This document shows, piece by piece, positions 18,541 to 47,457 of a DNA stretch of 64,000 nt. The notes beneath the pieces were generated by a model, which saw only the letters and a list, made by a program, of their open reading frames with translations, was not told where the DNA came from and did not search any database. This stretch comes from an uncultured Bacteroidales bacterium (GTDB taxonomy: Bacteria > Bacteroidota > Bacteroidia > Bacteroidales > Paludibacteraceae), in the NCBI GenBank assembly GCA_902765485.1, contig CACWZZ010000007.1, positions 57,233-121,232 on the forward strand, given 5' to 3'. Every line of letters starts with the position of its first letter. Position 1 is the first letter of the stretch. Made by a program: the position numbers and the translations under genes.

Positions 18541-18569
18541 TCCTCCCCTTGGGGGGAGGTCGGGTGGGG
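18541..18569. repeat. G-rich palindromic element, intergenic copy 1
   Basis: CTCCCC/GGGGAG-type arms followed by a GGG-T-GGGG tail occupy nearly the whole gap between GH57 and the porin. This is a slightly shortened member of the 32-nt family found at 19892, 23369, 25931, 29390 and 47351. Confidence 0.8.
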
Positions 18570-18572
18570 TTT

Positions 18573-19841
18573 TTATTTCTTCGCTTTCTTCAGTTTCGCC
18601 TGAAGAGCCTGAATCTCCTCCTCCTGATTGCGGATCGTCTTCAGCAACTCGTTCAACTCTTCGTTCTCGATGGTCGTCGGGTATTGCTCCTCTACGGTCT
18701 GCAGGAAATCAGACAGGATATTCATATAGTTGATGAACGCGTCGTAAGCGGACTCAAACTGCGTCTCACCCTGATCAATATGGTTCATGTAGTGTACGTA
18801 GTTCACGTCCTGCAATCTCAACCAGTTGGTCTTCAGGTTCTTGTCCTGGCACAGATGCACGCGCTCGGTCACGGCGTACAGTTTGTTCAATGCCTCTTGC
18901 TGCAAGTCGTTACCGGTATAGACGCTCAGATCCTTTGCCTCACCGCTCCATGTCAACGGATACGGACTTGACAGCACATCCTCTGCTGCCAGTTTCTTCG
19001 CTGCTTCAGCAGGAGTCATGAAGCCCATCTCGCGCTCCAGCACATAGTACGGCAGCGCTTTCAGGAAATCGAAGATACCGCTTCCGGCGTTCTGACGAAT
19101 ACCGAAAGTCTCGGCTCCAACCCAGATATTGATGATGTCTTCTCCCTCCGGCAGGGCTTGTGACTGGTTCGCATATTTCTCTGCGTCGATCGGGAAATTG
19201 CCCCATCCCGGATCCGAGAAATGGAAACTCAACTCGTCGCTCAGACCGGTGTTGCGAAGCAGCACTTTCATCTTCGGTGCACCCGCAGACTGATACATCT
19301 TGTTCGGCGTCTTCCAGCTGATCACATGCTTCGCGCCTTCCGTCAGAATGGTCTTGTAACCCATCTTGTTCAGGTTGTAAGCCAACTCGTCGGTGTACAG
19401 CAACTCCGTGTTCCAAACGGTCTGTGCTTTCACGCCGAGGATCGACTCCAGCAACTCGCCTTGACGTTTCAACTGGCTCTTGAACTCATCGGCATTGTAC
19501 TCCGACGCCAGCGAATAACTGTACGGAGTAGCGAGGAACTCAACGGCTTTCGTGGCTGCCAACTCTTTCAGAATATCAATCATCTCCGGGTTGAACTGCT
19601 CGAACATCTCGATCATCGTTCCGCTGATACTCAGCGCGCAGTGGAACTTGCCTTTACTCAGGCTGATCATGTCTTTCAATGTCTGGCAAAGAGGCAGATA
19701 AGACGTCTCTACCAACCAGTTTACGTGTTCTTCGGTCGCCATGTCGTCGTAGTAGTAATGATCATGACCGATTTCAAAGAAACGATAGCGCTTCAGACGA
19801 TAAGGAGCATGCATCTGGAAGCAAAAACATATATTTTTCAT
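18573..19841 (-). CDS. Glycoside hydrolase family 57 alpha-glucan enzyme
   Basis: A 422-residue cytoplasmic GH57 protein, without a signal peptide. The N-terminus MKNICFCFQMHAPYRLKRYR carries the HAPYRL signature of the family, and WNTELLYTDE (residues 143-152) carries the likely catalytic Glu. The C-terminus is a charged helix (IRNQEEEIQALQAKLKKAKK) suited to a coiled coil. GH57 members are alpha-amylases, 4-alpha-glucanotransferases or branching enzymes. Next to a GT4 synthase and a debranching enzyme, it probably remodels intracellular glycogen. It is transcribed after the GT4 gene, with a G-rich palindrome between them. Confidence 0.9.
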   Translation of the reverse strand: MKNICFCFQMHAPYRLKRYRFFEIGHDHYYYDDMATEEHVNWLVETSYLPLCQTLKDMISLSKGKFHCALSISGTMIEMFEQFNPEMIDILKELAATKAVEFLATPYSYSLASEYNADEFKSQLKRQGELLESILGVKAQTVWNTELLYTDELAYNLNKMGYKTILTEGAKHVISWKTPNKMYQSAGAPKMKVLLRNTGLSDELSFHFSDPGWGNFPIDAEKYANQSQALPEGEDIINIWVGAETFGIRQNAGSGIFDFLKALPYYVLEREMGFMTPAEAAKKLAAEDVLSSPYPLTWSGEAKDLSVYTGNDLQQEALNKLYAVTERVHLCQDKNLKTNWLRLQDVNYVHYMNHIDQGETQFESAYDAFINYMNILSDFLQTVEEQYPTTIENEELNELLKTIRNQEEEIQALQAKLKKAKK

Positions 19842-19891
19842 ATCTTTAAAAATTATCTGTTTTGAATTGTTTTTTCTCCCTCCCGTTTTTT

Positions 19892-19923
19892 CTCCCTCCT
19901 TTGAGGGGAGGGTTGGGGTGGGG
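19892..19923. repeat. G-rich palindromic element, intergenic copy 2
   Basis: A full 32-nt copy: arm CTCCCTCC, loop TTTGA, arm GGGGAGGG, then GGGG-T-GGGG. It ends on the base before the stop codon of the GT4 gene (19924). Confidence 0.85.
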
Positions 19924-21180
19924 TTACTTATTGATTACCATATCGTAAATCTTACGCACCTTGAGTCCTGCGTCGGACCATTTGATGTTGTTGACTTCAG
20001 CCATTCCGAGTTCGTGCAGGCTCTTGTACATCGCCGGATATTTGACGATTGCGTAGATCGCGTCTGCCATCGCATCGATGTCCCAGTAATCGGTCTTGAT
20101 TGCGTGTTGCAGGATCTCTGCGCAGCCGGACTGATGACTGATGATGGACGGACAGCCGACCTGCATCGCCTCCAACGGACTGATACCAAACGGCTCACTC
20201 ACACTCGGCATGATATAGACGTCGCTCATCGCTAGCATCTCTTGTACCTGCTTGCCGCGCATAAAGCCCGGGAAGTGGAACTTGTCCGCGATACCGAGTT
20301 TGGCTACGAGGTCAATCATCTCTGCCATCTTGTCGCCGCTACCGGCCATCACAAAACGAACGCCGTTCGTCTTGCTCAGCACGCGTGCTGCGGCTTCCAC
20401 GAAGTACTCCGGTCCTTTCTGCATCGTGATACGGCCCAGGAAAGTAACCAACTTGTCTTTCCGCTCCGGCTTGGAGAACTCCTCCGGATGAGCCAGCGGC
20501 TCAACGGCATTGTGAACCGTGCTCACCTTGCGCGGGTCGATTCCGTATTTCTCGATCACAGTACGACGCGTCAGGTTACTAACGCAAATGATATGGTCCG
20601 CTTCGTCCATTCCGCGTTTCTCGATGGCATAAACCGTCGGGTTCACATTGCCGCGGCTGCGGTCGAAATCGGTTGCGTGGACGTGGATCACAAGCGGCTT
20701 GCCGCTGATATGTTTGGCGAACACACCTGCCGGATAAGTCAACCAGTCGTGGCTGTGGATAATATCGAAATCCAGACTGTGCGCCAGCACGGAAGCGACT
20801 GCTTCATAGTTACCGATCTCTTCGATCAGGTTGTCCGGATAGCGGCCCGAGAAACCGACGCAACCTAAATCGTCTGTGCCGATACGGCGGTAGTCATAAC
20901 GGATGCCGTCGCGCAGGTGGTAATACTCCTCCGGGCTCATCTTGCCTTCCATCCGTTGCTTCACGTAGTCGTAATTGACATCTTTCCACACGATGGGCAC
21001 GCTGTTAGCGCCGATGATACGCAAGAAACTCTGATCCTCGTCGCCCCACGGCTTTGGAATGACGAACGTGATATGCATGTCTTCCTGTTGAGCCATGCCG
21101 CGGGTCAAACCGTAACTGGCGGTTCCTAAACCTCCTAAGATATGAGGGGGAAACTCCCAACCGAACATTAGTGCTTTCAT
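19924..21180 (-). CDS. GT4-family glycogen synthase-like glycosyltransferase
   Basis: A 418-residue GT-B fold enzyme. It starts MKALMFGWEFPPHILGGLGT, a glycogen/starch synthase-like N-terminus with the GGLG nucleotide-sugar loop. The C-terminal Rossmann half contains VTFLGRITMQKGPEYFVEAA and the EX7E-type motif MPSVSEPFGISPLEAMQVG. The substrate is probably UDP- or ADP-glucose and the product alpha-1,4-glucan. Its ATG overlaps the end of the debranching-enzyme gene by four bases (ATGA), and GH57 follows. This gives an operon of debranching enzyme, synthase and GH57. Confidence 0.9.
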   Translation of the reverse strand: MKALMFGWEFPPHILGGLGTASYGLTRGMAQQEDMHITFVIPKPWGDEDQSFLRIIGANSVPIVWKDVNYDYVKQRMEGKMSPEEYYHLRDGIRYDYRRIGTDDLGCVGFSGRYPDNLIEEIGNYEAVASVLAHSLDFDIIHSHDWLTYPAGVFAKHISGKPLVIHVHATDFDRSRGNVNPTVYAIEKRGMDEADHIICVSNLTRRTVIEKYGIDPRKVSTVHNAVEPLAHPEEFSKPERKDKLVTFLGRITMQKGPEYFVEAAARVLSKTNGVRFVMAGSGDKMAEMIDLVAKLGIADKFHFPGFMRGKQVQEMLAMSDVYIMPSVSEPFGISPLEAMQVGCPSIISHQSGCAEILQHAIKTDYWDIDAMADAIYAIVKYPAMYKSLHELGMAEVNNIKWSDAGLKVRKIYDMVINK

Positions 21181-23153
21181 AATTCTGCCTCCTTCTTTTC
21201 TTGTTCAGCTTCAGCCTGCTTATACTTCTTCAGCGTGTCCATGACGCTGATCACAGCCGCTACGCTCGGAGCGTAACTCATACCGCCGTGGCCTTTGTAC
21301 GGCGGGTTGCCGTCGTACATCTCGTTCAGCGTACCGATCGTCAACTGATCCATCTCGGCTTCGAAACCGACCAACAGACGCTCCATGAAACTGATTCCGC
21401 TGTATTTATATACGTTCATGTACGCACGCGCATAAGCCGCAATCGTGAACGGCCATACAGGACCGTTGTGGAAATTGCGGTCGCGCTCCTGCTGACCGCC
21501 GCGGTAGATCGGACGGTAGTCGCCGCTCTTCGGACTCAGAGTTCGCAAACCCTTCGGAGTCAGCAGCTCTTTCGTACAGATATCTACCACAGCCTTCTGC
21601 TGTTTCTTGTCCAGCGGGCTGTAAGGCAGTCCGGCTGCCCAGATCTGGTTCGGACGTACCTCGCGGTTCTCGTAGTTATCGATCACGAAATCATTCAGAT
21701 AAACACCATTCCAGAATACTTTCACGAATGCATCTTTGGTGATCTCGGCTTGGTATTCCATCAGGTCGGCACTCGTCTCTTTGCCCATCTCGCGCAGCAT
21801 CTCTGCCGTGAACCGCATCGCGTTGTACCACAGGGCGTTGATCTCTACCACATACCCCGTTCGCGGAGTGATCGGCCAACCGTTCTCGGTTGCGTTCATC
21901 CAGGTCGCAGGACGCTGTCTGCCGTCCACCCAGAGCAAGCCGTTCTGGTGCAGTTTGGCACGCGGATGGTTCTGCTTGCGATACCAAGTGATGATCTCTT
22001 GGCATAACTGACCGTACAACTCGGCTGCCTCGCGTACCGTATATTTATGCGCGTATTTCTGCGCAGCACGGATAAACCACAGCAACGCGTCTGGCTCGTC
22101 CATTCCGGTCATCTTGATGTCGTGGATCTTGCCTGCCATGAACTTCTGTATCTCGTCGATTGCCGTCTTGTTGATGATCGCGTCCCAGTATTCCGGACGG
22201 TCGATATCCAGCGTACAACTCGGCGTAGCGAAGAATGTGTTACGCGCGTCGGCGTGGAACCACGGGAAACCGGCTAACAAGTAACATTTGTCGCCTTCGC
22301 GCTTGTAGAACTGACTCGCGCTGTTCTTCAGCGTAGAGAACATGTCCTCGCGGCGGTTTCTACGCGCCAGCTCTTTCTTCCAGGTCGCCTTCAGAGTGCT
22401 TGTCTTGCATTCCGTCACACCGGCGGCGAAAATGATACTCTCGCCTTTCTTCATCGGCAGCTCGAAATAACCCGGAACCAGCAGATCCTCCTTGAATGCA
22501 TAGCCGCGTTCACGCTCTTTGCGGTACTCAATGTCTTTGTACCATTGCGGATCGTGGTGATACTCAACGGCTTTGCTGAACTGCATGTACAGATTCGGGA
22601 AACCCGGGTACATCCGGTTGAAACGACCGTTCTCGCACTCGTCCATGTTCGGATTAGCTAACGGGTTCTCGTGCGTCAACTCGTTCACGCTGCGGAAAGC
22701 CAGGAACGGACGGAAACGCAATACCGTCGGACTGCCGCTCTCTAACAGCGTGTAACGAATCAGCACACGCGGCTCGAAACTAACCAGCAAACGCTCTTTC
22801 TCCAATACCATCGCACCCACGCGGTAAACGGTCTTGGAAATCAATTCGCAGTCAAACTCGCGAATGTACTTGTGTCCGTTCGGGCTGAAATGGTTCTCGC
22901 CGTACTCGTGCAGACCTAGATTGAACTCTGCACCGTGTTGGATAACTGTCTCGTCCAAAGAACTCAGCAGCACAAAATTGTCCTCGCTGATCTCCGGAAT
23001 TGGCATCACCAACTGACCGTGGTATTTACGTGTGTTGCAATCCACCAGAGTGGTAGAGTTGTACACACCTGCACGGTTTGTCCGAATCATCTCTTTCTGG
23101 AGCGACCGCTCCAGATTAACAAGTACTGTCTTGTCAAAATTCAGATAACTCAT
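21177..23153 (-). CDS. Glycogen debranching enzyme (amylo-alpha-1,6-glucosidase)
   Basis: A 658-residue cytoplasmic protein with an N-terminal glycogen-debranching domain (residues 1-~260, NRAGVYNSTTLVDCNTRKYHG). It is followed by a six-hairpin glucosidase domain with LLWVDGRQRPATWMNATENG (near residue 400) and PRTGYVVEINALWYNAM. The C-terminus GGMSYAPSVAAVISVMDTL is typical. It removes alpha-1,6 branch glucose during glycogen breakdown. As the first gene of the operon with GT4 and GH57, it sets the group as a glycogen metabolism unit. Confidence 0.93.
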   Translation of the reverse strand: MSYLNFDKTVLVNLERSLQKEMIRTNRAGVYNSTTLVDCNTRKYHGQLVMPIPEISEDNFVLLSSLDETVIQHGAEFNLGLHEYGENHFSPNGHKYIREFDCELISKTVYRVGAMVLEKERLLVSFEPRVLIRYTLLESGSPTVLRFRPFLAFRSVNELTHENPLANPNMDECENGRFNRMYPGFPNLYMQFSKAVEYHHDPQWYKDIEYRKERERGYAFKEDLLVPGYFELPMKKGESIIFAAGVTECKTSTLKATWKKELARRNRREDMFSTLKNSASQFYKREGDKCYLLAGFPWFHADARNTFFATPSCTLDIDRPEYWDAIINKTAIDEIQKFMAGKIHDIKMTGMDEPDALLWFIRAAQKYAHKYTVREAAELYGQLCQEIITWYRKQNHPRAKLHQNGLLWVDGRQRPATWMNATENGWPITPRTGYVVEINALWYNAMRFTAEMLREMGKETSADLMEYQAEITKDAFVKVFWNGVYLNDFVIDNYENREVRPNQIWAAGLPYSPLDKKQQKAVVDICTKELLTPKGLRTLSPKSGDYRPIYRGGQQERDRNFHNGPVWPFTIAAYARAYMNVYKYSGISFMERLLVGFEAEMDQLTIGTLNEMYDGNPPYKGHGGMSYAPSVAAVISVMDTLKKYKQAEAEQEKKEAEL

Positions 23154-23223
23154 GATTTGTGATTTAATATTAAGTAATTTATGTTGTTTTGTAATTTTCT
23201 TTCTCTCTTTTTTCTTTTTTTGT

Positions 23224-23243
23224 ATCCGCCTATCTTGGCGGAT
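23224..23243. repeat. 20-nt dispersed palindrome (family B), copy 1
   Basis: ATCCGCC and GGCGGAT arms around a 6-nt centre, in the manC-debranching enzyme gap. The same palindrome recurs at 34309, 38858 and 55147. Confidence 0.85.
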
Positions 23244-23276
23244 CTCTTTTGTCTTTGTCTTAGTTTTTGTTTTTTC

Positions 23277-23368
23277 CCTTGCGCCCTCGCGCCCTCTGCC
23301 CTCGCGCCCTCTTTCCTTGCGTTCTCGCGCTCCGCGTTGTTCTGTGCTCGCGCCCTCTGTGCGCGAGT
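23277..23368. repeat. Degenerate GC-rich repeat (CGCGCCCTCT)
   Basis: An irregular array of CTCGCGCCCTCT-like units (at least four) fills most of the 264-nt gap between manC and the debranching enzyme. It runs into a G-rich palindromic element. No gene was seen. Confidence 0.7.
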
Positions 23369-23400
23369 CTCCCTCCCTTGAGGGGAGGGGCGGGGCGGGG
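23369..23400. repeat. G-rich palindromic element, intergenic copy 3
   Basis: A full 32-nt copy: arm CTCCCTCCC, loop TTGA, arm GGGGAGGG, then GCGGGGCGGGG. It lies 17 nt past the manC stop codon. Confidence 0.85.
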
Positions 23401-23417
23401 TTATTAGGCCGGGGTTC

Positions 23418-24614
23418 TTACAGCTCGCTCACAAACTGCTTGATCCGCTGCTCCTCGCGCTTCTTGCAAACCAGCAGCTTTCCGTCCTGCTCCACGATGA
23501 TCATGTCCTCCACGCCTTGCACGATAGCCGTCTTGCCTTGCTCCAGCACAACGATATTTCCCTTCGCGTCGTAGAAATGTGTCTCGCTGTGCAGACTCAC
23601 GTTGCCGTTTTCGTCTTTCTCGCTCAACTCGTACAAGCTGCCCCATGTGCCCAAATCGCTCCATCCGAAACTGCTCGGAATGACGAACACATTATTGGCT
23701 TTCTCCATGATGCCGTAGTCGATACTGATGCTCGGACATTTGGGGAACATCTCTTCGATGAACTTCTCCTCTTTCTCGGTTCCCATCAGCAACTCCCCTT
23801 CGCGGAAATGGTCTGCCACTTGTGGCAGCAGATACCGGAATGCCTCGCTGATCGTCTGCAAATTCCAGATGAAGATACCGCTGTTCCACAGAAAATCTCC
23901 GCTCTCCAGAAACACTTTCGCCATCTCCAGATTCGGCTTCTCCGTAAACGTCTTCACCGGATAAATCCCTTCTGACGGCTGATGGCTGATGTCTGATGGC
24001 TTCAAAAATTGAATGTATCCGTATCCCGTCTCCGGCCGTGTCGGTTGCATGCCAAGCGTACAGATCGCTTTGTTCCGGCTCACGAAATCAAACGCTTTAC
24101 GGATCGTGTCGCGGAATTTCTCTTCTTCCAAAATCAAATGGTCACTTGCCGCCACCACGATATTCGCCTGCATCTCCGGCTTACTCCAGTCGATGTCCAA
24201 ATAATTGGGCAACTGCGATGTCTCCGATCCGCCTTTCACTTTCCCGTCCTTGGTATAGCCTTGCTCAGACGTGTAACCATAGGCGCGTTGAAGACATAAC
24301 GCCCTAATACGCGCAGTCGCGTACGCGATACAAGGAGCCGTATTCCTGCGTGCTGGCTCGCACAAGATCTGACCTTCATTCAAATCAGGTATCTGCTCCA
24401 AAATCAAACGCTTGTAAGCCACGTTCGTCACAATGAACACATTCTCAATCGGCACCAAAGGCCTGAAACGGTCCACCGTCATCTGCAGCAAACTTCTACC
24501 CGTTCCGAAAAAGTCCAAAAACTGTTTCGGCTTCTCTTCCCTGCTGTACGGCCAGAAACGACTTCCCACGCCCCCGGCCATTATTACGCAATAATTGTTT
24601 TTCTTTTCTGTCAT
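23418..24614 (-). CDS. manC: Mannose-1-phosphate guanylyltransferase
   Basis: Makes GDP-mannose from mannose-1-phosphate and GTP. The nucleotidyltransferase loop VIMAGGVGSRFWPYSREEKP is at the N-terminus. FLWNSGIFIW, SFGWSDLGTWGSLYEL and VLEQGKTAIVQGVEDMIIVE follow as in the family. I start at 24614 (MTEKKNNYC); the in-frame ATG at 24656 lies inside a 21-nt palindrome and adds only 14 atypical residues. At 398 residues it is the monofunctional form, without a phosphomannose isomerase domain. A short insertion (SDISHQPSEG) is coded by four 7-nt GCCATCA-like units near 23973-24000. Confidence 0.93.
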   Translation of the reverse strand: MTEKKNNYCVIMAGGVGSRFWPYSREEKPKQFLDFFGTGRSLLQMTVDRFRPLVPIENVFIVTNVAYKRLILEQIPDLNEGQILCEPARRNTAPCIAYATARIRALCLQRAYGYTSEQGYTKDGKVKGGSETSQLPNYLDIDWSKPEMQANIVVAASDHLILEEEKFRDTIRKAFDFVSRNKAICTLGMQPTRPETGYGYIQFLKPSDISHQPSEGIYPVKTFTEKPNLEMAKVFLESGDFLWNSGIFIWNLQTISEAFRYLLPQVADHFREGELLMGTEKEEKFIEEMFPKCPSISIDYGIMEKANNVFVIPSSFGWSDLGTWGSLYELSEKDENGNVSLHSETHFYDAKGNIVVLEQGKTAIVQGVEDMIIVEQDGKLLVCKKREEQRIKQFVSEL

Positions 24615-24652
24615 TTTTTTTTGTGTTTTTATAGTATCTTTTGGTATTATAT

Positions 24653-24673
24653 ACATAGTATATAATACTATGT
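24653..24673. repeat. 21-nt palindrome upstream of manC
   Basis: ACATAGTAT and ATACTATGT flank a 3-nt centre. This perfect 9-bp palindrome just upstream of the manC coding region could be an operator or a leader hairpin. Confidence 0.6.
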
Positions 24674-24693
24674 GTGTTGATCTGCTTTAATTA

Positions 24694-24743
24694 GTGCGTG
24701 GTAAGTGCGTGATAAGTGTGTGATAAGTGCGAGATAAGTGCGT
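24694..24743. repeat. 11-nt tandem repeat (GTGCGTGATAA)
   Basis: Four to five units of GTGCGTGATAA with single changes lie in the 386-nt divergent gap between manC and gldD. Similar arrays recur at 34473 and 56255. The rest of the gap (24744-24900) holds imperfect GCATATC-CC repeats and no gene. Confidence 0.85.
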
Positions 24744-25042: not shown

Positions 25043-25726
25043 ATGGGCTTTCGGCAAAGAAACATCTTACAGCAAAGCGGTCTTACAGCAAAGCGGTCCT
25101 ACAGTTTTAGCGGTCTTACAGCGCTAGCGGTCTGTGCTTTGGCGCTCTTTTTGTGTGTCTCGTGCAGCGCTCCCACCTCCCCGCGTCCGTACGGCTATTA
25201 CCGTATCACCACGCCCGACACCGCCTATACGGACTTTCAACTATCAACTATCAACTCTCAACTCTCAACTCCCCCTTCAGGGGGCTGGGGGGCTTACCCA
25301 TACACCTTTTCTGTCTCCAGAAACGCCATCATCCAACCCCAAGAGAAAGAGAACGAACGCTACTGGATCAACCTCTATTACCCGTCCTTGAACGCCACAA
25401 TCCATTGTTCGTACAAACCTGTGCATAACAATCTGCGCGAACTCACCAACGATGCGCTGGAGTTTGTCTATCGCAACGCCTCCTTCGCAACCGCTATACC
25501 CGAACAAGACTACTCCCATCCGGAGGCGAACGTCTATGGAGTACTCTTCGATTTGGAGGGAAACACAGCCTCGTCCTGCCAGTTTTTTGTGACCGATTCC
25601 ACCCGCCATTTCTTCCGGGCTTCGGTCTATTGCAACTGTCCGCCGAACGCCGATTCCCTCGCCCCTGTCTATCAATACCTCCGCACGGACATCATCAAAA
25701 TGGTTGAAACTTTCCAATGGCAATGA
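25043..25726 (+). CDS. gldD: Gliding-motility/type IX secretion lipoprotein GldD
   Basis: A 227-residue lipoprotein with hydrophobic segment ALAVCALALFLCVSC and the lipidated Cys near residue 43. The mature part follows the GldD pattern closely: YGYYRITTPDTAY, PYTFSVSRNAII, WINLYYPSLNATIHCSYKPV, VYGVLFDLEGNTASSCQFFV and TDSTRHFFRASVY. GldD is a cell-envelope component needed for gliding and linked to type IX secretion. Two repeat insertions are visible: a 16-nt repeat (CTTACAGCAAAGCGGT type) codes the N-terminal region, and five 7-nt TATCAAC units plus a truncated G-rich element (25235-25294) code a linker between the first two motifs. Confidence 0.88.
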   Translation: MGFRQRNILQQSGLTAKRSYSFSGLTALAVCALALFLCVSCSAPTSPRPYGYYRITTPDTAYTDFQLSTINSQLSTPPSGGWGAYPYTFSVSRNAIIQPQEKENERYWINLYYPSLNATIHCSYKPVHNNLRELTNDALEFVYRNASFATAIPEQDYSHPEANVYGVLFDLEGNTASSCQFFVTDSTRHFFRASVYCNCPPNADSLAPVYQYLRTDIIKMVETFQWQ

Positions 25727-26976
25727 AAAAAGAGCTCGAAATATCGAAATGTCGATCTCTCGAAATATCGGGAAAATCCCTCGCTCTTCTCCTCGATCCC
25801 GAGAAAGCAGACCTCGCCGCGCTTCCGATCACTTCGGAAGTCCACCCCGACTACATCTTCGTAGGCGGCTCCACCGGCGGCGACACCACTCCCTTCGTCC
25901 GTGCTTTGCGGGAAAAACTGGCAACCCTTTCTCCCTCCCTGCGGGGGAGGGATGGGGAGGGGCTTCCCATTGTCCTTTTTCCCGGATCGGCTGCCCAATT
26001 CACACCCGAAGCAGATGCCATTCTATACCTCTCTTTGTTGTCCGGAAATAACCCCGAATACCTTGTAGGTCAACATATTAAGTCTGCGCAAGCAATCCAT
26101 CACTCGTCCGTCGAAGTGATCCCGACCGGATATGTTCTGATTGACGGTGGGGTAGAGACTTCCACTATGCGCGTAACAAACACCAAACCGCTCTCTCCGA
26201 CCGACATAGACACGATCGTCAATACCTGTATCGCAGCCGAACTGATGGGTAAAAAAGCCATCTATCTTGAAGCCGGATCCGGCGCAAAGACACCCGTCTC
26301 GCCAGAGATCATCCGATCCGTCCGCGCGAACACCTCTGTCACACTCATCGTTGGCGGCGGCATCCGCACGCCCGAAGCGATGAACGCAGCTTATGCCGCC
26401 GGAGCGGACATAGTGGTCATAGGCAACCATTTCGAGTCCCATCCGGAATCCCTTGCGGACTTTGTCCGCCCTAGTTCAACTAGTTCTTCTAGTTTGTCTA
26501 GTTTGACTAGTTCTTCTAGTTCAACTAGTTCGACTAGTCCCTCTACCGACGAGCGCTTCATGGCGTTAGCCATAGAAGAAGCGCGTAAAGCTCTGAAAGC
26601 CGACGAAATCCCCATCGGATGTGTGATCGTCTCGCAGGGGCAGATCATCGGTCGCGGACATAACCTCACCGAGACCCTCGCAGATGTCACGGCGCACGCC
26701 GAGATACAAGCCATCACAGCCGCGTCGCAGACTCTCGGTGGTAAGTACCTGCCGGACGCTACCCTCTATGTCACGGTCGAACCGTGCGCCATGTGCGCAG
26801 GTGCCATCGGATGGGCGCAGATAAGCCGCATCGTCTATGGCGCTCCCGATCCCAAAAGAGGCTTTCAGACGTACGCTCCGCGAGCCTTCCACCCCAAAGC
26901 AAAAACCACTTCCGGCGTCCTCGAAACGGAGTGCCGCGCACTAATACAAGAATTTTTTAAATCCAAAAGATCATGA
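25717..26976 (+). CDS. Fusion: geranylgeranylglyceryl phosphate synthase + tRNA adenosine deaminase
   Basis: 419 residues joining two normally separate enzymes. Residues ~15-250 are a group II GGGP synthase, which joins a prenyl diphosphate to sn-glycerol-1-phosphate: LALLLDPEKA, YIFVGGSTGG, LYLSLLSGNNPEYLVGQH, VIPTGYVLIDGG, IYLEAGSGAKTPV and LIVGGGIRTPE. Residues ~278-419 are a complete TadA-type deaminase that makes inosine-34 in tRNA, with zinc motifs HAEI (~327) and PCAMCAG (~359). Residues ~253-276 between them are only Ser/Thr/Leu, coded by eight 9-nt CTAGTTNNN units. A G-rich palindromic element adds SPSLRGRDGEGLP near residue 72. It overlaps gldD by 10 nt and the HD gene by 4 nt. Confidence 0.9.
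   Translation: MAMKKELEISKCRSLEISGKSLALLLDPEKADLAALPITSEVHPDYIFVGGSTGGDTTPFVRALREKLATLSPSLRGRDGEGLPIVLFPGSAAQFTPEADAILYLSLLSGNNPEYLVGQHIKSAQAIHHSSVEVIPTGYVLIDGGVETSTMRVTNTKPLSPTDIDTIVNTCIAAELMGKKAIYLEAGSGAKTPVSPEIIRSVRANTSVTLIVGGGIRTPEAMNAAYAAGADIVVIGNHFESHPESLADFVRPSSTSSSSLSSLTSSSSSTSSTSPSTDERFMALAIEEARKALKADEIPIGCVIVSQGQIIGRGHNLTETLADVTAHAEIQAITAASQTLGGKYLPDATLYVTVEPCAMCAGAIGWAQISRIVYGAPDPKRGFQTYAPRAFHPKAKTTSGVLETECRALIQEFFKSKRS
25931..25962 (+). repeat. G-rich palindromic element inside the GGGP synthase domain
   Basis: A full 32-nt copy with arm CTCCCTCCC, loop TGCG, arm GGGGAGGG, then ATGGGGAGGGG. It is translated as PSLRGRDGEGL between strand motifs that are adjacent in ordinary homologues. 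Confidence 0.88.
26471..26542 (+). repeat. 9-nt tandem repeat (CTAGTTNNN x8) coding a linker
   Basis: Eight exact 9-nt units beginning CTAGTT (the last is CTAGTC). They are read as CT-AGT-TNN, giving Ser-Ser-Thr/Ser/Leu triplets with no stop codon. The length of 72 nt keeps the frame. Confidence 0.92.
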
Positions 26977-28889: not shown

Positions 28890-28935
28890 CTAAATGGCTA
28901 AATGAAAAAATAAATGGTACATGGTAAATGACCAA

Positions 28936-30036
28936 ATGAATAAATTGTTTCTCGCTCCCATGGAGGACGTCACGGATCCAGCCTTCCGTGCGCTCTGCAA
29001 GCGCTACGGAGCCGATCGTGTCTATACCGAGTTCGTCAATGCCGACGCGCTCGTGCGGGACATCGCTTCTACCACCCGCAAGCTGACCATCCACGACGCC
29101 GAGCGTCCCGTAGCCATTCAAATCTACGGACGCGAACCCGAAGCGATGGCAGACGCCGCACGTATCGTCGAACAAGCGCATCCCGACTTCATAGACATCA
29201 ACTTCGGCTGCCCGGTCAAGAAAGTGGCAGGCAAAGGAGCCGGAGCAGGGCTCCTAAAGGACGTACCCAAAATGCTGGAGATCACCCGCGCGGTCGTCAA
29301 TGCCGTCCATACACCCGTTACCGCCAAAACCCGCCTCGGATGGGATGAGTCCGATCTCCTTCCCCGCGTCAATCCGCTCGGACTCAATACTCCCTCCCTT
29401 GAAGGGAGGGCAGGGGAGGGGTTCTTCATCGTCGATTTGGCTGAAGCCCTCCAAGACTGCGGCATCCAAGAACTTGCGATCCACGGTCGCACGCGTTCGC
29501 AGATGTACCGAGGCGAAGCCGATTGGACCCTCATCGGAGAAGTGAAAAACAATCCGCGCATGCGCATACCTATTATAGGGAATGGAGATGTCTCCACCCC
29601 CGAACGCGCCAAAGAGTGTTTCGACCGTTACGGCGTGGACGCCATCATGGTCGGAAGGGCTACTTTCGGTGCACCCTGGCTCTTTGCCGAAATGAAAGCC
29701 GTATTGGATCCTTCTTTCCCCCCCTTGAGGGGTGAAGAGCTCTGCTCGATCGAGCGTCCGGTGGACGGTCGTAGAACAAATCAGGGGGTTATTATCCCCC
29801 TCTCTATGGCGGACAAAGTCGCCGTCCTCAAAGAACACGTCCTCGCTTCCATCGCGTGGTGTGGCAACGACGAACGCAAAGGTATCGTGCATTCCCGTCG
29901 TCATTTTGCGGCTTCGCCTGTCTTCAAAGGCCTCGCGGACTTCAAACAAACCCGTATAGCCCTCCTCCGCGCCGAAACCGTCGCAGAGGTCTTCGCTATC
30001 ATGGATAATATCGTCGCCCATTGGGGCGACAACTAG
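28936..30036 (+). CDS. dusB: tRNA-dihydrouridine synthase (DusB type)
   Basis: An FMN-dependent enzyme that reduces specific uridines in tRNA. It starts MNKLFLAPMEDVTDPAFRAL. The catalytic loop NFGCPVKKV has C92, and HGRTRSQMYRGEADW and IIGNGDV follow. I start at 28936 rather than 28921 because family members begin at this motif. Two insertions are repeat-derived. One is NTPSLEGRAGEGF at ~residue 152, from a full G-rich palindromic element. The other is a ~25-residue stretch (SFPPLRGEELCSIERPVDG region, 29710-29800) that begins with a partial copy. The TAG stop lies inside a CTAG-type tandem repeat. Confidence 0.93.
   Translation: MNKLFLAPMEDVTDPAFRALCKRYGADRVYTEFVNADALVRDIASTTRKLTIHDAERPVAIQIYGREPEAMADAARIVEQAHPDFIDINFGCPVKKVAGKGAGAGLLKDVPKMLEITRAVVNAVHTPVTAKTRLGWDESDLLPRVNPLGLNTPSLEGRAGEGFFIVDLAEALQDCGIQELAIHGRTRSQMYRGEADWTLIGEVKNNPRMRIPIIGNGDVSTPERAKECFDRYGVDAIMVGRATFGAPWLFAEMKAVLDPSFPPLRGEELCSIERPVDGRRTNQGVIIPLSMADKVAVLKEHVLASIAWCGNDERKGIVHSRRHFAASPVFKGLADFKQTRIALLRAETVAEVFAIMDNIVAHWGDN
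29390..29421 (+). repeat. G-rich palindromic element inside dus
   Basis: A full 32-nt copy with arm CTCCCTCCC, loop TTGA, arm AGGGAGGG, then CAGGGGAGGGG. It is read in the same frame as in the GGGP synthase and parC, giving PSLEGRAGEGF. Confidence 0.9.
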
Positions 30037-34365: not shown

Positions 34366-34527
34366 GTTTCTTTATCCCCGCATCCTCTTTTGTTTCTTTA
34401 TCTCCGCCTCCTCTTTCCTTCCCCTTTCACCTTCCCCTTTCACCTTTCACTTTTCACCTTTTTCCTTTCAAAAGGGGGTGATAAGGGGGTGATTAGGGGG
34501 TTATTACGGGGTGATTAGGGGGATATT
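34355..34527. repeat. Tandem repeats: 26-nt duplication, CCTTTCA array and 11-nt array
   Basis: A 26-nt unit starting CATCCTCTTTTGTTTC is duplicated with one change (34355-34406), copying the terminator tail. A pyrimidine-rich CCTTTCA array follows. Then come five 11-nt units of AGGGGGTGATT type (34473-34527). No gene lies between 34259 and 34644. Confidence 0.85.
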
Positions 34528-41747: not shown

Positions 41748-41769
41748 CCGTTCTTTAAGAAAAATCATG

Positions 41770-41800
41770 CAAAGGTAAAGAAAAATTTTGATATATGCAA
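41770..41800 (-). promoter_or_regulatory. Promoter of the DUF5063-exonuclease operon
   Basis: Minus strand: TTGCATATATC (-33) and TACCTTTG (-7, 41777-41770). It shares the TATATGCAA core with the divergent promoter. Confidence 0.8.
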
Positions 41801-41818
41801 GAATTTTAGTAACTTTGC
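41787..41818 (+). promoter_or_regulatory. Divergent promoter of the coiled-coil protein/upp operon
   Basis: TTTG (41787-41790), 19 nt, then TAACTTTG (41810-41817). It overlaps the -33 region of the opposite promoter. Confidence 0.8.
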
Positions 41819-41872
41819 GCCAAAATTCCGAAATCGGGACATTAATAACATAATTTAAATAATTCAAACGAG

Positions 41873-42514: not shown

Positions 42515-42515
42515 T

Positions 42516-43172
42516 ATGAAAGTTATCAATCTCTCGGAGCAAAACAGTGTCCTCAATAATTTCCTGCGCGAGATTCGCGACGTGGATATCCAAAAGGACA
42601 GCCTCCGTTTTCGTCGTAACATAGAGCGCATTGGCGAAGTGATGGCAATCGAAATGAGCAAGTCGCTTGCTTATGAACCGACCGATGTGCAGACTCCTCT
42701 GGGGATTGCGAAAGTGAATACAATCGCCGAACCGATGGTCTTGGCGACCATCCTGCGTGCTGGTCTGCCCCTCTACCAAGGCTTCCTGAATATCTTCGAC
42801 CATGCGGAGAATGCGTTCCTGAGCGCTTACCGCCGCGTGAATGAGAAAGGTGAACTGGAGATCGTGGCGGAGTATATGGCGGCTCCTTCAATAGAGGGCA
42901 AAACGCTGGTGATTGCAGACCCGATGCTGGCTACCGGCATGTCCATGGAGAGCAGTTTTATCGCGCTCTGCAAACATGGTCAGCCGCGCCACACCCACCT
43001 CTGCTGCACCATCGGTACACCCCAGGCGGTGGAGTACCTGCGTAAGGCGCTTGGCGATCGCGAAGATGTCACCCTCTGGTGCGCTGCGATTGATCCGATC
43101 CTGAACGAGAAGAAATATATTGTTCCCGGTCTCGGAGACGCAGGAGATTTATGCTTCGGAGAGAAATTGTAA
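42516..43172 (+). CDS. upp: Uracil phosphoribosyltransferase
   Basis: 218 residues, making UMP from uracil and PRPP in pyrimidine salvage. The PRPP-binding loop VIADPMLATGMSMESS is at residues ~132-147, preceded by ILRAGLPLYQG. The C-terminal uracil-binding PGLGDAGDLCFG is intact. The start at 42516 follows the coiled-coil gene stop by one base. Its end overlaps the vanZ-like gene by 22 nt. Confidence 0.95.
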   Translation: MKVINLSEQNSVLNNFLREIRDVDIQKDSLRFRRNIERIGEVMAIEMSKSLAYEPTDVQTPLGIAKVNTIAEPMVLATILRAGLPLYQGFLNIFDHAENAFLSAYRRVNEKGELEIVAEYMAAPSIEGKTLVIADPMLATGMSMESSFIALCKHGQPRHTHLCCTIGTPQAVEYLRKALGDREDVTLWCAAIDPILNEKKYIVPGLGDAGDLCFGEKL

Positions 43173-43522
43173 CATACATACCGGCCGTGCTTGTCACGGT
43201 CGGTATTGCTATTCTCAGCCTCATGGAGAGCAACTACGTGCCTCGTTCCTTGAGCGCGCAGGACAAGCTTCTCCATGGAGCGATGTATCTGTTTCTGGCG
43301 GTCAGCTGGATGGCACCGGTAGCGAGAACATTTCCTTCCCGTTTCATGCCCTATCTGTGGGTGTGGAGCGGAGTAGTCGTTTATGGCGCCCTCATGGAGA
43401 TCCTGCAGCGTTTCTGTACGCTCACGCGCTCCGGCGAGATGGCGGACCTCTATGCCGACATGCTCGGCGCCCTCGTCGGCGTCGCCCTCGTCGCCATAAT
43501 ATGCAAACTCAGTACTAAATAA
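43151..43522 (+). CDS. VanZ-like membrane protein
   Basis: 123 residues with four predicted membrane helices: TYIPAVLVTVGIAILSLM, LLHGAMYLFLAVSWMAPV, FMPYLWVWSGVVVYGALMEI and LYADMLGALVGVALVAII. The DKLLHGAMYLFLA and EILQRFC...GEMADLYADMLGA motifs are characteristic of VanZ-family proteins of unclear function. It overlaps upp. The TAA stop is the first triplet of a TTCTCAA tandem-repeat spacer leading into dprA. Confidence 0.85.
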   Translation: MLRREIVTYIPAVLVTVGIAILSLMESNYVPRSLSAQDKLLHGAMYLFLAVSWMAPVARTFPSRFMPYLWVWSGVVVYGALMEILQRFCTLTRSGEMADLYADMLGALVGVALVAIICKLSTK

Positions 43523-43550
43523 TTCTCAACTCTCAATTATCAATTCTCCA
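43520..43550. repeat. 7-nt tandem repeat spacer (TCTCAAT) between vanZ-like gene and dprA
   Basis: About four units of TCTCAA(T/C) begin inside the VanZ stop codon (TAATTCTCAA) and end 13 nt before the dprA homology. A near-identical spacer lies between parC and maf. Confidence 0.85.
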
Positions 43551-43562
43551 TTCACACATGAC

Positions 43563-44615
43563 ATTGCTCTCTCGCTGCTGTTCCGCAATCGTCTGCGGCA
43601 GGCATTGCAGCTGGTGAGCCGCTTCGGTTCAGCCGAAGAGGCTTGGCGTGCCATAGACGAACCCGAAATGGAGGCTTGTCTTCGTCGTGCGCAGCAGGAG
43701 ACGGAGTGGATTGAGGAGCATGGTATTCGCGTCTGGACGCTGGAGGATGAGGACTATCCGTATCGCCTTCGCCAATGTCCGGACAAACCGCTGCTGCTCT
43801 ATGGCAAAGGCAATCTGCATCCTTCGGATGGGCATATCGTCTCTATCGTCGGCACGCGGCAACCGACCCAGCGGGGCAAGGAACTGACGGAAGCGTTGGT
43901 ACGCCAACTGCATGAGCAGCTGGACTCCGTCACAATCGTCAGCGGAGGCGCTTACGGCATTGACATCACGGCGCATAGAGCCGCAATACAATATGGTATT
44001 CCCACCATCATCGTCCCTGCGCACGGGCTCGATCGCATCTATCCTTACCAGCATCGACCGGAAGCAATCGCTTCGCTCGAACATGGAGGAATTCTGACCG
44101 AGTTCACTTCCGGCACAGAGCCTCTCGCGGGCTTCTTTGTCCAGCGAAACCGTATCGTCGCAGGCTTGGCGGACGCGGTGGTGGTCGTTGAGTCTCGCGA
44201 AAGAGGCGGCAGCCTTATCACGGCGCAGATGGCGGTGGATTACGACCGCGACTTGTTCGCTTTTCCCGGACGTCCGACCGACCTCTCTTCTGCCGGATGT
44301 AATAAACTGATTCGTTCCAACAAAGCATCACTCATCACTTCGGCGGACGACCTGATAGATGCCATGCAATGGACCAAACGCACTGCCGTCGCTCAACCCG
44401 TTCAGACGGAGATCATCGGCTTGCGGGAAGACCTCTCGCCAACCCAGCAAAACATCCTGCAAAAACTGCAAGAAGCGGAGGAAGGAATGCATATCAATCT
44501 TCTGGTCATGGAGACCGAGAGACCCTATAGCGAAGTCTCTTCGGATCTGGTTATGCTCGAGTTACAGGGACTCGTTCGTTCGCTACCCGGCGGAATTTAT
44601 CGCTTTGTACGATAA
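43563..44615 (+). CDS. dprA: DNA-processing protein DprA
   Basis: A single-stranded DNA-binding protein that loads RecA during DNA uptake. The Rossmann-type core is complete: VSIVGTRQPTQRGKELT, VSGGAYGIDITAHRAA, VPAHGLDRIYP, QRNRIVAGLADAVVVVES and GGSLITAQMA. A C-terminal winged-helix segment follows (LSPTQQNILQKLQEAEEGMH). Family-like sequence begins at codon 43563 (IALSLLFRNRLRQALQLVSR), but there is no ATG in frame. The usable starts are ATT at 43563 or TTG at 43605. The ATG at 43558 is out of frame. The N-terminal HhH glycine loop looks degraded (FRNRL). Confidence 0.88.
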   Translation: MALSLLFRNRLRQALQLVSRFGSAEEAWRAIDEPEMEACLRRAQQETEWIEEHGIRVWTLEDEDYPYRLRQCPDKPLLLYGKGNLHPSDGHIVSIVGTRQPTQRGKELTEALVRQLHEQLDSVTIVSGGAYGIDITAHRAAIQYGIPTIIVPAHGLDRIYPYQHRPEAIASLEHGGILTEFTSGTEPLAGFFVQRNRIVAGLADAVVVVESRERGGSLITAQMAVDYDRDLFAFPGRPTDLSSAGCNKLIRSNKASLITSADDLIDAMQWTKRTAVAQPVQTEIIGLREDLSPTQQNILQKLQEAEEGMHINLLVMETERPYSEVSSDLVMLELQGLVRSLPGGIYRFVR

Positions 44616-44629
44616 AAAAGAAGAAAAAG

Positions 44630-44662
44630 TTTGCATATTTGCAAATTTTTTTGTACCTTTGC
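44630..44662 (+). promoter_or_regulatory. Promoter of the small membrane protein/parC operon
   Basis: TTTGCATATTTG (-33 region from 44630) and TACCTTTG (-7, 44654-44661), followed by a ~25-nt leader. Confidence 0.8.
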
Positions 44663-44692
44663 AGCCGCAAATTAAAAGAATCACATAATATT

Positions 44693-44857
44693 ATGGAAAA
44701 TTTCAAAAAGTATCTGGGAGTTTTTCTCCTTTTGTTAGGTGTGGTATTCCTTATTATTTATAGAGTGGCTCTTCCGTATAACTCATTGTTGGTCACAGCA
44801 ATGGTATGCGAAGTAGTGGGTATCCTCGCCTATATCTTCATCAATAGGAAGGCATAA
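44693..44857 (+). CDS. Small two-helix membrane protein
   Basis: 54 residues from the ATG at 44693. Two hydrophobic helices (YLGVFLLLLGVVFLIIYRVA and LLVTAMVCEVVGILAYIFI) are joined by LPYNS, and the protein ends NRKA. This is the pattern of a small conserved Bacteroidota inner-membrane protein. It is five bases upstream of parC and behind a strong promoter, so it is transcribed with it. Function unknown. Confidence 0.75.
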   Translation: MENFKKYLGVFLLLLGVVFLIIYRVALPYNSLLVTAMVCEVVGILAYIFINRKA

Positions 44858-44862
44858 TCCGA

Positions 44863-47457
44863 ATGGCAGGTCAAGGTGGATTCAATGATGCGGTAAAGTA
44901 TCACTTGACGGGCATGTACCAGGACTGGTTCCTGGACTATGCTTCGTATGTGATACTGGAGCGTGCTGTGCCGGCGATTGAGGATGGTCTCAAGCCCGTG
45001 CAGCGCCGTATTCTGCATGCCATGAAGACCGTCGATGATGGCAAGTATAACAAGGTTGCCAATATCGTCGGTCAGACCATGCAGTACCACCCGCACGGAG
45101 ACGCGTCCATCGGAGATGCGCTTGTCCAGCTTGGCCAGAAAGATCTGCTCATTGACTGCCAAGGTAACTGGGGAAACATCTTGACAGGCGACGGAGCCGC
45201 TGCTCCTCGTTATATCGAGGCGCGGCTTTCTAAGTTCGCTCTCGAGACCGTCTTCAATGCCAAGACGACCGAGTGGATGAAGTCCTATGACGGACGCAAG
45301 AACGAACCGATCCACCTGCCTATTAAATTCCCTTTGCTCCTCGCGCAAGGCGTGGAGGGTATCGCGGTCGGCTTGAACTCCAAGATCCTGCCGCATAACT
45401 TCAACGAACTATGCGACGCGTCGCTGGCTTACCTGCGGGGACAGGAGTTCCAACTCTTCCCGGATTTCCCGACGGGGGGTGTTATTGATGTCACCAAGTA
45501 CAACGATGGCGAACGCGGAGGTTCGGTGAAGATTCGTGCCCGCATCCAGAAAGCGGACGACAACAAGACCCTTGTTATCACCGAGATACCTTTCGGTACC
45601 ACTACCTCCAAAATCATCGAGACCATTCTCAAGGCGGCGCAGAAAGGTAAGATCAAGATCCGGAAGATCGATGATTTTACTGCCGACACGGCTCGTATCG
45701 TTGTGCAACTGGCGCCCGGCTCGTCTTCCGACAAAGCCATCGATGCGCTCTATGCCTTCACGGACTGTGAAGTCAATATCAGCCCGAACTGCTGCGTGGT
45801 GGAGAACAAAAAACCGATCTTCACTTCCGTCAGCAATCTCCTCCGCCTCTCTACCGACAACACCAAAGCCCTCCTCAAATGGGAGCTGGAGATAGAGAAA
45901 GGCGAACTGGAGGAGAAGTATTTCTATACCTCGCTGGAGAAAATCTTCATTGAGAACCGCATCTATAAGCAGGAAGGCTATGAGAACGCTCCCAACAAAG
46001 AGAAACTGATCGCTTTTGTGGATGAAGCGCTCACACCGTTCAAACCCCAACTCATTCGGGAGGTTCACTCCGAGGATATCGAGAAACTGTTCGAGATCCG
46101 GATGATCCGTATCACAAAATTCGACTCCAAGAAAGCGGACGAACTGATGAAGGAACTGGAGAAGAAGATCAAGGCGTGCGTCAAGAATCTCAACCACCTC
46201 ACCGACTATACCATCGCGTGGTTCGAAATGCTCAAATCCAAATACGGCGAGGCGTATCCGCGTCGTACCGAGGTGCGCAACTTCGGCGCAATCAACGTCA
46301 AAGCCGTTGTGGAGAACAATGAGAAACTCTATATCAACCGCGAGGAAGGATTTATCGGAACGGGACTGAAGAAAGATGAGTTCCTCTTCAACTGCTCCGA
46401 TATAGACGACATCATCGTTTTCCATAAGGACGGTAAATACAAGGTCATGAAGGTGGCGGAGAAACTCTTCATCGGTACCGACATCCTCCATATCGCGGTC
46501 TTCCAGCGCGGCGACGAACGCACCGTGTACAATGTCGTCTATCGCGACGGCAAGAAGGGCACGTATTTCATGAAGCGTTTCAATATCACCGGTGTCACGC
46601 GAGACAAAGAATATGACCTCACCCAAGGTACACCCGGGTCCAAAGTCATTTATTTCACCGCGAACCCCAACGGCGAAGCCGAAGTAATCAAGGTGACGCT
46701 CAAACCCCAGCTGCATCTCAAGAAACTGGAGGTCTGCAAAGATCTATCCGAGTTGGCGGTCAAATCGCGTACGGCACGAGGCAATGTATTGACGAAATTC
46801 GAAGTCAAATCGATTACCCTCAAGCAGAAAGGACATTCTACCCTCGGCGGACGTAAGGTCTGGTTCGATGCCGATGTGCTACGCGTCAACTATGACGAGC
46901 ACGGTCTGTACCTCGGCGAGTTCAACGACGAAGATCGCATCCTCGTCCTCCAGAACGATGGTACGTATTATACCACCTCCTTTGACCTCACCGCCCATTT
47001 CGAAGATAATATCCTGCGCATCGAGAAACTTGATCCGGAGAAAGTGTGGTCGCTCATCCAGTGGAATGGCGAACTCAAATACTACTACGGCAAGCGTTTC
47101 CGTCTGGACGACGCGCAAGCCAAAGTCCAGTCCTTCCTCGGTGACGACAAAGACTCGCGCATAGCGGTACTCTCCGATCGCGCAGAAGCGACCTTCCGCG
47201 TTACTTTCGCGGACGACAAACACGAACCGATGGATATTCTCATGGAGGAGTTTATTGACGAGAAATCGCCTAAAGCAAAAGGTAAGCGTGTCACGACCCT
47301 CGAAGTGGCTTCTATTGAAGATATCACCCCGGAGCCTGAGGTGTCTCCTGCCCCCTCCCTTGAGGGGAGGGACGGGGAGGGGTTACCATCTCTTGACATT
47401 GAGGGTGTCCCCATGACCTTTGAGAAACCCGCTGACACCCAGTTGGACCTCTTTTAA
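44863..47457 (+). CDS. parC: DNA topoisomerase IV subunit A (ParC/GyrA-like)
   Basis: An 864-residue type IIA topoisomerase subunit. The breakage-reunion domain begins near residue 15 (YASYVILERAVPAIEDGLKP, QYHPHGDASIG). The DNA-linking tyrosine is Y117 in APRYIEARLS. The tower and coiled-coil follow, and the C-terminal half has degenerate beta-pinwheel strands (FNITGVTRDKEYDL, KSITLKQKGHSTLGGRKVW). The catalytic core matches Bacteroidota ParC rather than GyrA. At ~residue 830 a G-rich palindromic element adds APSLEGRDGEGLPSLD to the disordered tail, where it should be harmless. parE is not in the window. Confidence 0.93.
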   Translation: MAGQGGFNDAVKYHLTGMYQDWFLDYASYVILERAVPAIEDGLKPVQRRILHAMKTVDDGKYNKVANIVGQTMQYHPHGDASIGDALVQLGQKDLLIDCQGNWGNILTGDGAAAPRYIEARLSKFALETVFNAKTTEWMKSYDGRKNEPIHLPIKFPLLLAQGVEGIAVGLNSKILPHNFNELCDASLAYLRGQEFQLFPDFPTGGVIDVTKYNDGERGGSVKIRARIQKADDNKTLVITEIPFGTTTSKIIETILKAAQKGKIKIRKIDDFTADTARIVVQLAPGSSSDKAIDALYAFTDCEVNISPNCCVVENKKPIFTSVSNLLRLSTDNTKALLKWELEIEKGELEEKYFYTSLEKIFIENRIYKQEGYENAPNKEKLIAFVDEALTPFKPQLIREVHSEDIEKLFEIRMIRITKFDSKKADELMKELEKKIKACVKNLNHLTDYTIAWFEMLKSKYGEAYPRRTEVRNFGAINVKAVVENNEKLYINREEGFIGTGLKKDEFLFNCSDIDDIIVFHKDGKYKVMKVAEKLFIGTDILHIAVFQRGDERTVYNVVYRDGKKGTYFMKRFNITGVTRDKEYDLTQGTPGSKVIYFTANPNGEAEVIKVTLKPQLHLKKLEVCKDLSELAVKSRTARGNVLTKFEVKSITLKQKGHSTLGGRKVWFDADVLRVNYDEHGLYLGEFNDEDRILVLQNDGTYYTTSFDLTAHFEDNILRIEKLDPEKVWSLIQWNGELKYYYGKRFRLDDAQAKVQSFLGDDKDSRIAVLSDRAEATFRVTFADDKHEPMDILMEEFIDEKSPKAKGKRVTTLEVASIEDITPEPEVSPAPSLEGRDGEGLPSLDIEGVPMTFEKPADTQLDLF
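47351..47382 (+). repeat. G-rich palindromic element inside parC
   Basis: CCCCTCCC, loop TTGA, GGGGAGGG, then ACGGGGAGGGG. It is read as PSLEGRDGEGL, the same frame and orientation as in dus and GGGP synthase. Confidence 0.9.

Follow-up and report, generated by a model that had tools for sequence, protein, structure and literature searches.

A dispersed repeat with the architecture of an intrastrand triplex motif inside genes and spacers of a Paludibacteraceae genus

Introduction

The class II intrastrand triplex motif of Escherichia coli (TM-ECO; potential intrastrand triplex, or PIT, elements; Holder and others) has been shown to fold in vitro and is linked to local instability, and that work describes it as 'always located intergenically' (PMC4666352). 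The same source names Flexibacter litoralis for A/T-rich triplexes, and its main text does not contain the word stem 'bacteroid'. Repetitive extragenic palindromic (REP) elements, including intragenic ones, have been described in several bacteria, in two Xanthomonas species at about the same recB site (PMC3733652). Here we describe a G-rich palindromic repeat of about 34 nt in a 64,000-nt stretch (the window) of contig CACWZZ010000007.1 from an uncultured Bacteroidales bacterium of the Paludibacteraceae (assembly GCA_902765485.1), where full copies lie inside the genes for PcrB (GGGP synthase), tRNA-dihydrouridine synthase (Dus) and ParC. We lean, if only slightly, toward the view that triplex-prone and other repeats overwrite unconstrained DNA, that is, spacers and protein loops, and that selection keeps the in-frame events.

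Judged by its sequence, the element would be a dispersed class II intrastrand triplex motif and one of several repeat families in the genus, alongside 7- to 11-nt tandem repeats and the GGTCTTACAG family. With TM-ECO (PMC4666352) the element shares a C-rich stem, a loop and two G-rich stems with a second loop of 3 nt, purine triads in antiparallel orientation in which T-A-A or T-A-T is set within C-G-G, copies numbering in the tens, sharp copy-number differences between near relatives, and local instability. Unlike TM-ECO, the repeat has stems of 7 rather than 9 nt and another sequence (the TM-ECO pattern CCCTCNCCC...GGGNGAGGG...GGGNGAGGG is not matched; the consensus CTCCCTCCCTTGAGGGGAGGGNCGGGGAGGGGTT, with 7-nt stems, is another motif of the same class), and 33 of its 54 copies lie in called genes as opposed to intergenically. 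The structural features of class II are all present, i.e., a Y-R-R (pyrimidine-purine-purine) stem order, C-G-G/T-A-A/T-A-T triads, stems of at least 6 nt and loops of 1-6 nt; the further observation that changes in the purine arm are followed by the third strand comes from a test of our own, outside the definition in that paper.

Like Rickettsia palindromic elements, the repeat is palindromic and lies in open reading frames (ORFs) without breaking the frame; unlike these elements as generally described, it is about 34 nt long and occurs in both orientations and all frames, and unrelated repeats occupy the same place in related species. A preliminary description of this stretch had taken these elements for the only well-known parallel, a statement that overlooks intragenic REPs (PMC3733652) and intrastrand triplex motifs (PMC4666352). 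With REPs and their REP-associated tyrosine transposase (RAYT) systems (PMC3733652), the repeat shares palindromes of 20-40 nt, many copies, a position at gene ends with stop codons supplied, and some copies within ORFs; it differs from them in its triplex tail and in having over half of its copies in genes. The structural class is already known, and so are intragenic palindromes in other phyla (PMC3733652). Two things appear new, as far as the open literature shows: over half of the copies of a triplex motif are genic and use every open frame, and one repeat family takes the place of another in the same protein loops of related species; no report of in-frame triplex or palindromic repeats in Bacteroidales genes was found among the open-licence literature matches listed.

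The element and its triads

Five matches to the 21-nt core at no more than three mismatches were found in the window, all on the + strand, against none in 100 dinucleotide shuffles; these are the five full copies of the preliminary description, and the three peptides it had read from them are as it gave them, in genes that match Pfam. Its lesser copies exist in modified form: the one called slightly shortened (18541) is a shifted variant, and the two called partial are a shorter variant in gldD (25270) and a seemingly tail-replaced copy in Dus (29718). The copies are as follows.

18541..18570, + strand: shifted variant copy with a CCTCCCC / GGGGAGG stem and a GGTGGGG tail
19892..19925, + strand: full copy, intergenic; its G tract adjoins the stop codon of the leftward gene 19924-21180
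23369..23402, + strand: full copy, intergenic, with a third-strand mismatch (GGGGCGGGG)
25269..25295, + strand: short all-C/G variant copy, CTCCCCCTTCAGGGGGCTGGGGGGCTT, inside gldD; shared with the near relative RUG13776 (G085)
25931..25964, + strand: full copy inside PcrB; peptide PSLRGRDGEGL
29390..29423, + strand: full copy in Dus loop 1; peptide PSLEGRAGEGF
29714..29801, + strand: content of Dus loop 2, a remnant copy (29718) joined to another dispersed repeat of ~64 nt
47351..47384, + strand: full copy in the ParC tail; peptide PSLEGRDGEGL

Since the copy at 25270 lies in the gldD ORF and that at 29718 in Dus, five copies (one a remnant) lie in four window genes. The earlier statement that copies sit against stop codons is borne out at 19892, since a TTA, with which the leftward gene stops, comes directly 3' of the G tract; for the 18541 variant, the distance to the stop codon of its leftward gene (18573-19841) is 2 nt. 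The stem of the 25269 copy is shorter than the seven-triad model described below needs. At 29718, another dispersed repeat appears to have taken the place of the tail of a copy: relatives carry a full copy there and the next 64 nt recur elsewhere. In five related genomes, this ~64-nt second repeat (29714-29777) occurs many times over. Scanned against Rfam, the window returned only tRNAs and a tmRNA.

Alignment of 36 copies gave CTCCCTCCC TTGAG GGGAGGG NNG GGGWGGGG TT, that is, a pyrimidine arm, a 5-nt loop, a purine arm, a 3-nt loop and a second purine arm. Read in mirror order, the G-rich tail corresponds to the 3' arm, and the interruptions of the two shift together; G facing G, and A facing A or T, make up the triads from which an antiparallel purine triplex is built. 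Our collection from the window's own genome comprises 54 copies, 43 from the pattern search (40 of A, 1 of C and 2 of D type) and 11 looser ones. Forty of them are ungapped, and at least six of the seven purine-motif triads are present in 38 of these (all seven in 27, six in 11), the remaining two, including the one at locus L028, having five. Under free geometry, a fit chosen per copy and without a control, 47 of the 54 reach six or seven triads.

The triads also covary. Among the 40 ungapped copies, arm A16 is paired with tail A30 in 10 of 11 cases (Fisher p 8.5e-5) and arm A20 with tail A26 in 4 of 5 (Fisher p 5.5e-5), although, contrary to the pairing rule, A30 occurs without A16 in 6 of 29 copies. 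Position 28, which faces A18, is A or T in 35 of 36 copies of a hand-picked set that leaves out four ungapped ones, and other variants move the A and its partner jointly (GGGGAGG with GGTGGGG, GGGGGGA with AGGGGGG). For 65 informative GC-rich hairpins with a G-rich tail, picked regardless of triads, the mirror score was 58.32 vs. a permuted mean of 54.03 (0 of 2000 permutations as high; 15 of 5000 when one hairpin per distinct arm was kept, n=21). An origin of the tail as a direct repeat was rejected, there being no association (p 0.56 and 0.63). The preliminary description had also raised hairpin and G-quadruplex formation: the hairpin is the best fold in four of five sequences, the fifth pairing arm with tail, while a G-quadruplex was rejected as the conserved structure because just 18 of the 40 ungapped copies have four G3 runs.

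Copies across the genome and the genus

In the window's own genome (G000; 2.12 Mb in 41 contigs, 83% complete), a genome-wide search of the kind suggested in the preliminary description gave 43 strand hits of the core, corresponding to 42 places since one place is hit on both strands, and none with the reversed-pattern control. The window's proteins (GldD, Porin_10) and the relatives found through Dus, many titled Paludibacteraceae, indicate a host among the rumen and gut Bacteroidales. At up to three mismatches, the core is present in 22 of 37 genomes of the genus (own genome included), with 1 to 56 strand hits each, vs. 2 of 24 genomes outside it; G034 (97% complete) has 56 strand hits and G021 (63% complete) 29. 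Copies are also held by 16 of 18 genomes hand-chosen among the 80 Dus loci described below. Across the order, a sample of 295 genomes searched at two mismatches gave 6 positive ones (29 hits in the own genome, 1 to 5 in the others), and none was found in this sample's other genome of the genus or in the one genome from each of two other genera of the family. The repeat is largely a feature of one genus, differing sharply between its species. A strong match to the Y1 transposase family lies at G027:C93:832-1179, in a genome with only 2 strand hits of the repeat.

Position, orientation and reading frame

Gene positions were set on the stretches fetched around the own-genome matches (260.6 kb, 88% coding) with a simple Markov gene caller, which finds copies in frame or not at all, i.e., genes broken by a copy would count as edges or spacers. 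By this measure, 33 of the 54 copies are inside called genes, 20 are intergenic and one is at an edge; one of the 20 (25269) really lies in the Pfam-supported gldD ORF. The genic copies comprise 17 in sense and 16 in antisense orientation and are spread over six frames, a result that overturns the single orientation and frame of the preliminary description and rejects an element encoding a peptide in one frame. The reading PSLEGRDGEG is used by 11 copies, the antisense NPSPSLPSREG-type reading by 10, and the four other frames by 3 each. Since the frame that bears TGA is used only by 3 copies whose loop is without TGA, frame choice is largely governed by the positions of stop codons, plus an excess of two readings. 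The earlier idea of a mobile in-frame element therefore survives as a palindromic repeat in frame within real genes and not as a single-phase coding element; one half of what had been set against it, a spread over frames and orientations, is observed, and two frames are over-used (11 and 10 of 33).

The 33 genic copies sit in 28 genes, and a Pfam search with all 25 of those beyond the window gave matches for 24. Host families include MurG-, MurD-, DapB-, LpxD-, TatC- and GlmS-type proteins, an HflX-type GTPase, DAHP synthase with chorismate mutase, an AcrB-type pump, signal peptidase and RNA methyltransferases (beyond the family, the names reflect how we read the Pfam domains), and the inserts lie between domain matches in some proteins and inside them in others. 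One 1448-aa frame at L014:7-4353 combines an AcrB-type pump with an outer-membrane efflux protein, and a copy lies between the two domain matches. At L033:2945-3065, two opposite copies lie 16 nt apart in the gene of the HflX-type GTPase, where G085 has 46 nt of other sequence.

Replacement between near relatives

Comparison of the own genome with G085 over ~31.6 kb (91-94% identity outside the differing blocks) revealed 19 differing blocks in coding sequence and 9 that are intergenic or partly coding. The length differences are multiples of three in 17 of the 19 coding blocks (two of these being of equal length and one spanning two gene ends) vs. 1 of the 9 others; the out-of-frame coding blocks are L015 2171 and L015 4886. 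Of the 14 copies in the compared stretches, 9 are in blocks for which G085 lacks the copy, 4 are common to both genomes, and one (L033 5144) was not found in G085 yet lies in no block. At pcrB, G085 has no copy and is a net 33 nt shorter, whereas the length differences of the other blocks vary because old sequence was replaced. Several blocks have tandem repeats on one or both sides, which shows the process to be wider than this element.

The same holds site by site in the window. The 18541 copy is absent from its site in G085, which has TCAATTT tandem repeats in place of the 19892 copy; the 23369 copy is absent at its site in G088, G090 and G091 among the matches listed; and at the ParC tail, G085 and G090 have CCGGAxxxT-type repeats instead. 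The empty sites expected from the preliminary description are thus found in the sense that relatives lack the copy, but in the compared stretches these sites are mostly replaced and not cleanly interrupted. Clean insertion with target duplication was rejected as a general account, only pcrB coming near it and the other blocks seen being replacements. More broadly, eight pairs of relatives that are 85-94% identical over the loci differ abruptly at loops, several of them also in the 40-200 nt beside the loop and in the spacer after the gene. PcrB and ParC vary among relatives in the same way as Dus.

Turnover of the Dus loops

We followed Dus in 80 named loci plus the window (81 genomes), with loop 1 states labelled by eye. 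Loop 1 is short in 37, holds the own repeat in 7 and two relatives of it in 4 + 4, tandem repeats in 18, the GGTCTTACAG family (GGTCT) in 7 and other content in 4. The full copy of the own genome's loop 1 is shared with RUG13776. An extra DLxPxxNPL stretch is common to the fillings of the repeat classes, which may mean that the loop was lengthened once, early on, and had its contents changed in later events. On a quick Dus tree built without the loops, loop 1 state requires at least 37 changes over the 81 genomes (shuffled mean 40.4; 7 of 200 as low), and the filled classes are not clustered (own repeat, 6 changes vs. 6.8 shuffled; 105 of 500 as low). Loop content is replaced between near relatives, and loop state follows the gene tree weakly. 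Genomes sharing a loop 1 state are also more alike in the flanks (1 of 500 permutations as high). Loop 2 shows a variety like that of loop 1, its shortest form, a 19-residue segment, occurring in 23. In an AlphaFold model of Dus (30 sequences), loop 2 is of low confidence (blocks at a predicted local distance difference test, pLDDT, of 36 and 44), loop 1 lies between helices (67 and 71), and the stretch 97-110 is also low; the model supports no more than a tolerance of the Dus loops for inserts.

Mechanism and alternative explanations

The architecture, triad covariation, dispersal and frame preservation in both orientations are observed here; in the mechanism that we propose, a triplex forming in the cell would be the trigger of replacement. 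The motif, when single-stranded (e.g., at a replication fork), would fold into a triplex and stall synthesis, and the gap might be repaired by copying from another copy of the repeat or, alternatively, by short-tract recombination with a relative's allele, swapping the loop content; selection would then retain only the events that leave the frame open.

Several observations weigh against this mechanism. In E. coli, the data lent no support to a triplex that is stable in vivo (PMC4666352). In our set, one or more triads are broken in 13 of the 40 ungapped copies, the two short D-type copies fall outside the seven-triad stem model, the 18 copies with four G3 runs could also form a G-quadruplex, and the hairpin stability of the five folded copies is near that of shuffles (z -0.58 to -1.51). 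The triads covary in few subfamilies and thus represent few independent changes, and the 65-hairpin set contains overlapping and related entries. Tandem repeats and the GGTCTTACAG family occupy the same loops, and hence triplex folding is not needed for turnover in general. The stretches compared with G085 were selected because they contain copies, which makes them a biased sample of the genome. On the Dus tree, itself weak (just 29 of 78 inner branches well supported), the short-loop state is clustered (19 changes vs. 26.9 shuffled; 1 of 500 as low), and the phylogenetic signal is therefore not wholly lost. Finally, only the right flank contributes to the flank signal at loop 1 (on the left, pairs of the same state are no more alike than other pairs, with an excess over background of 0.013 vs. 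0.031), and the same test at loop 2, with crude classes that counted short inserts as empty (48 of 81), gave no signal (80 of 500 permutations).

The palindrome might be a mere passenger of slippage-grown tandem repeats and interspecies homologous recombination in unconstrained loops and spacers, its triplex shape being irrelevant. The non-triplex repeats in the same loops and the link between right flank and state at loop 1 speak for this, but slippage is unable to disperse a 34-nt element to 42 places and the covariation of arm and tail is left unexplained, and we regard it as unlikely. Recombination as the sole source was rejected, having some support at the right flank of loop 1 and none at the left or at loop 2. 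We would give similarly low, if anything lower, credence to a REP-type element inserted as a unit by a tyrosine (Y1, IS200/RAYT-like) transposase, with genic copies as tolerated insertions. A short asymmetric palindrome in tens of copies, some at gene ends, and the net +33 nt at pcrB fit unit insertion; intragenic REPs are known elsewhere (PMC3733652); and some genomes of the genus match PF01797 (Y1 transposase), strongly in G027 (2.9e-25) and weakly, at the cut-off and in frames of about 370 aa, in the high-copy G018 and G035. However, at E 0.001 PF01797 has no match in the own genome, at its 83% completeness, nor in G034 or G021 with their 56 and 29 strand hits, the consensus of 36 copies lacks the GTAG or CGTC tag of REPs, and most copy-holding blocks are replacements of varied net length as opposed to insertions of one length.

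Two further explanations fare worse. A selfish coding element like those of Rickettsia, with a peptide harmless or useful in one frame, could account for copies being in frame in many genes and for the two over-used frames, but the use of both orientations and all frames largely refutes it; 20 of the 54 copies are called intergenic (including the one really in gldD), and related genomes have unrelated peptides at the same place. We consider it very doubtful. Least credible of all is that metagenome assembly went wrong around repeats: most of the related genomes bear titles of such assemblies, and repeats do cause misassembly, but the element is shorter than ordinary sequencing reads, the same structures recur across assemblies with many different titles, and the frame is kept in 17 of 19 coding blocks vs. 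1 of 9 others.

Returning to the overwriting of unconstrained DNA by repeats, a bolder version of it is possible, and we offer it tentatively: the genus may renew protein loops genome-wide, with triplex-prone and tandem repeats serving as exchangeable in-frame cassettes between related species that would overwrite loops and linkers of MurG-, MurD-, DapB-, LpxD-, TatC- and GlmS-type proteins, ParC, Dus and others. Such renewal would amount to an untargeted hypervariation of ordinary proteins, unrelated to phase variation or surface antigens. In E. coli, triplex motifs were presented as intergenic puzzles tied to instability (PMC4666352); here, the same architecture is found in housekeeping enzymes, and related species supply a natural series of loops that are short, filled and refilled. 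This opens two questions to testing: whether local replacement is driven by triplex motifs, and to what extent protein loops accommodate arbitrary peptides. It also advises caution, in that a lineage-specific stretch of a rumen protein may be a DNA repeat that is read through.

Host genes and other repeats of the window

The window host genes (PcrB, Dus, ParC and GldD) were matched by Pfam, with Porin_10 also among the window proteins. The genes and the arrays within them are as follows.

25043..25726, + strand: gldD, PF25593 at residues 45-226; hosts two repeat arrays and the short copy
25065-25132: GGTCTTACAG array in gldD
25233-25271: 7-nt tandem array in gldD
25717..26976, + strand: PcrB (GGGP synthase) fused to a cytidine/adenosine-deaminase-like domain, by Pfam
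26471..26545, + strand: CTAGTTCGA array of 9-nt tandem repeats encoding the linker between PcrB and the deaminase; G085 has another repeat here
28921..30036, + strand: dus (tRNA-dihydrouridine synthase), by Pfam, with two hypervariable loops
44863..47457, + strand: parC (DNA gyrase/topoisomerase IV subunit A family), by Pfam

The amino end of GldD, upstream of the lipobox, is coded by the GGTCTTACAG-type array (25065-25132), and the true GldD start may be further downstream than the ORF start. Many window spacers have tandem repeats of 7, 8, 9 or 11 nt (e.g., 16541-16572, 24693-24743, 34473-34527 and 56254-56293), and some of their units are also present in related genomes.

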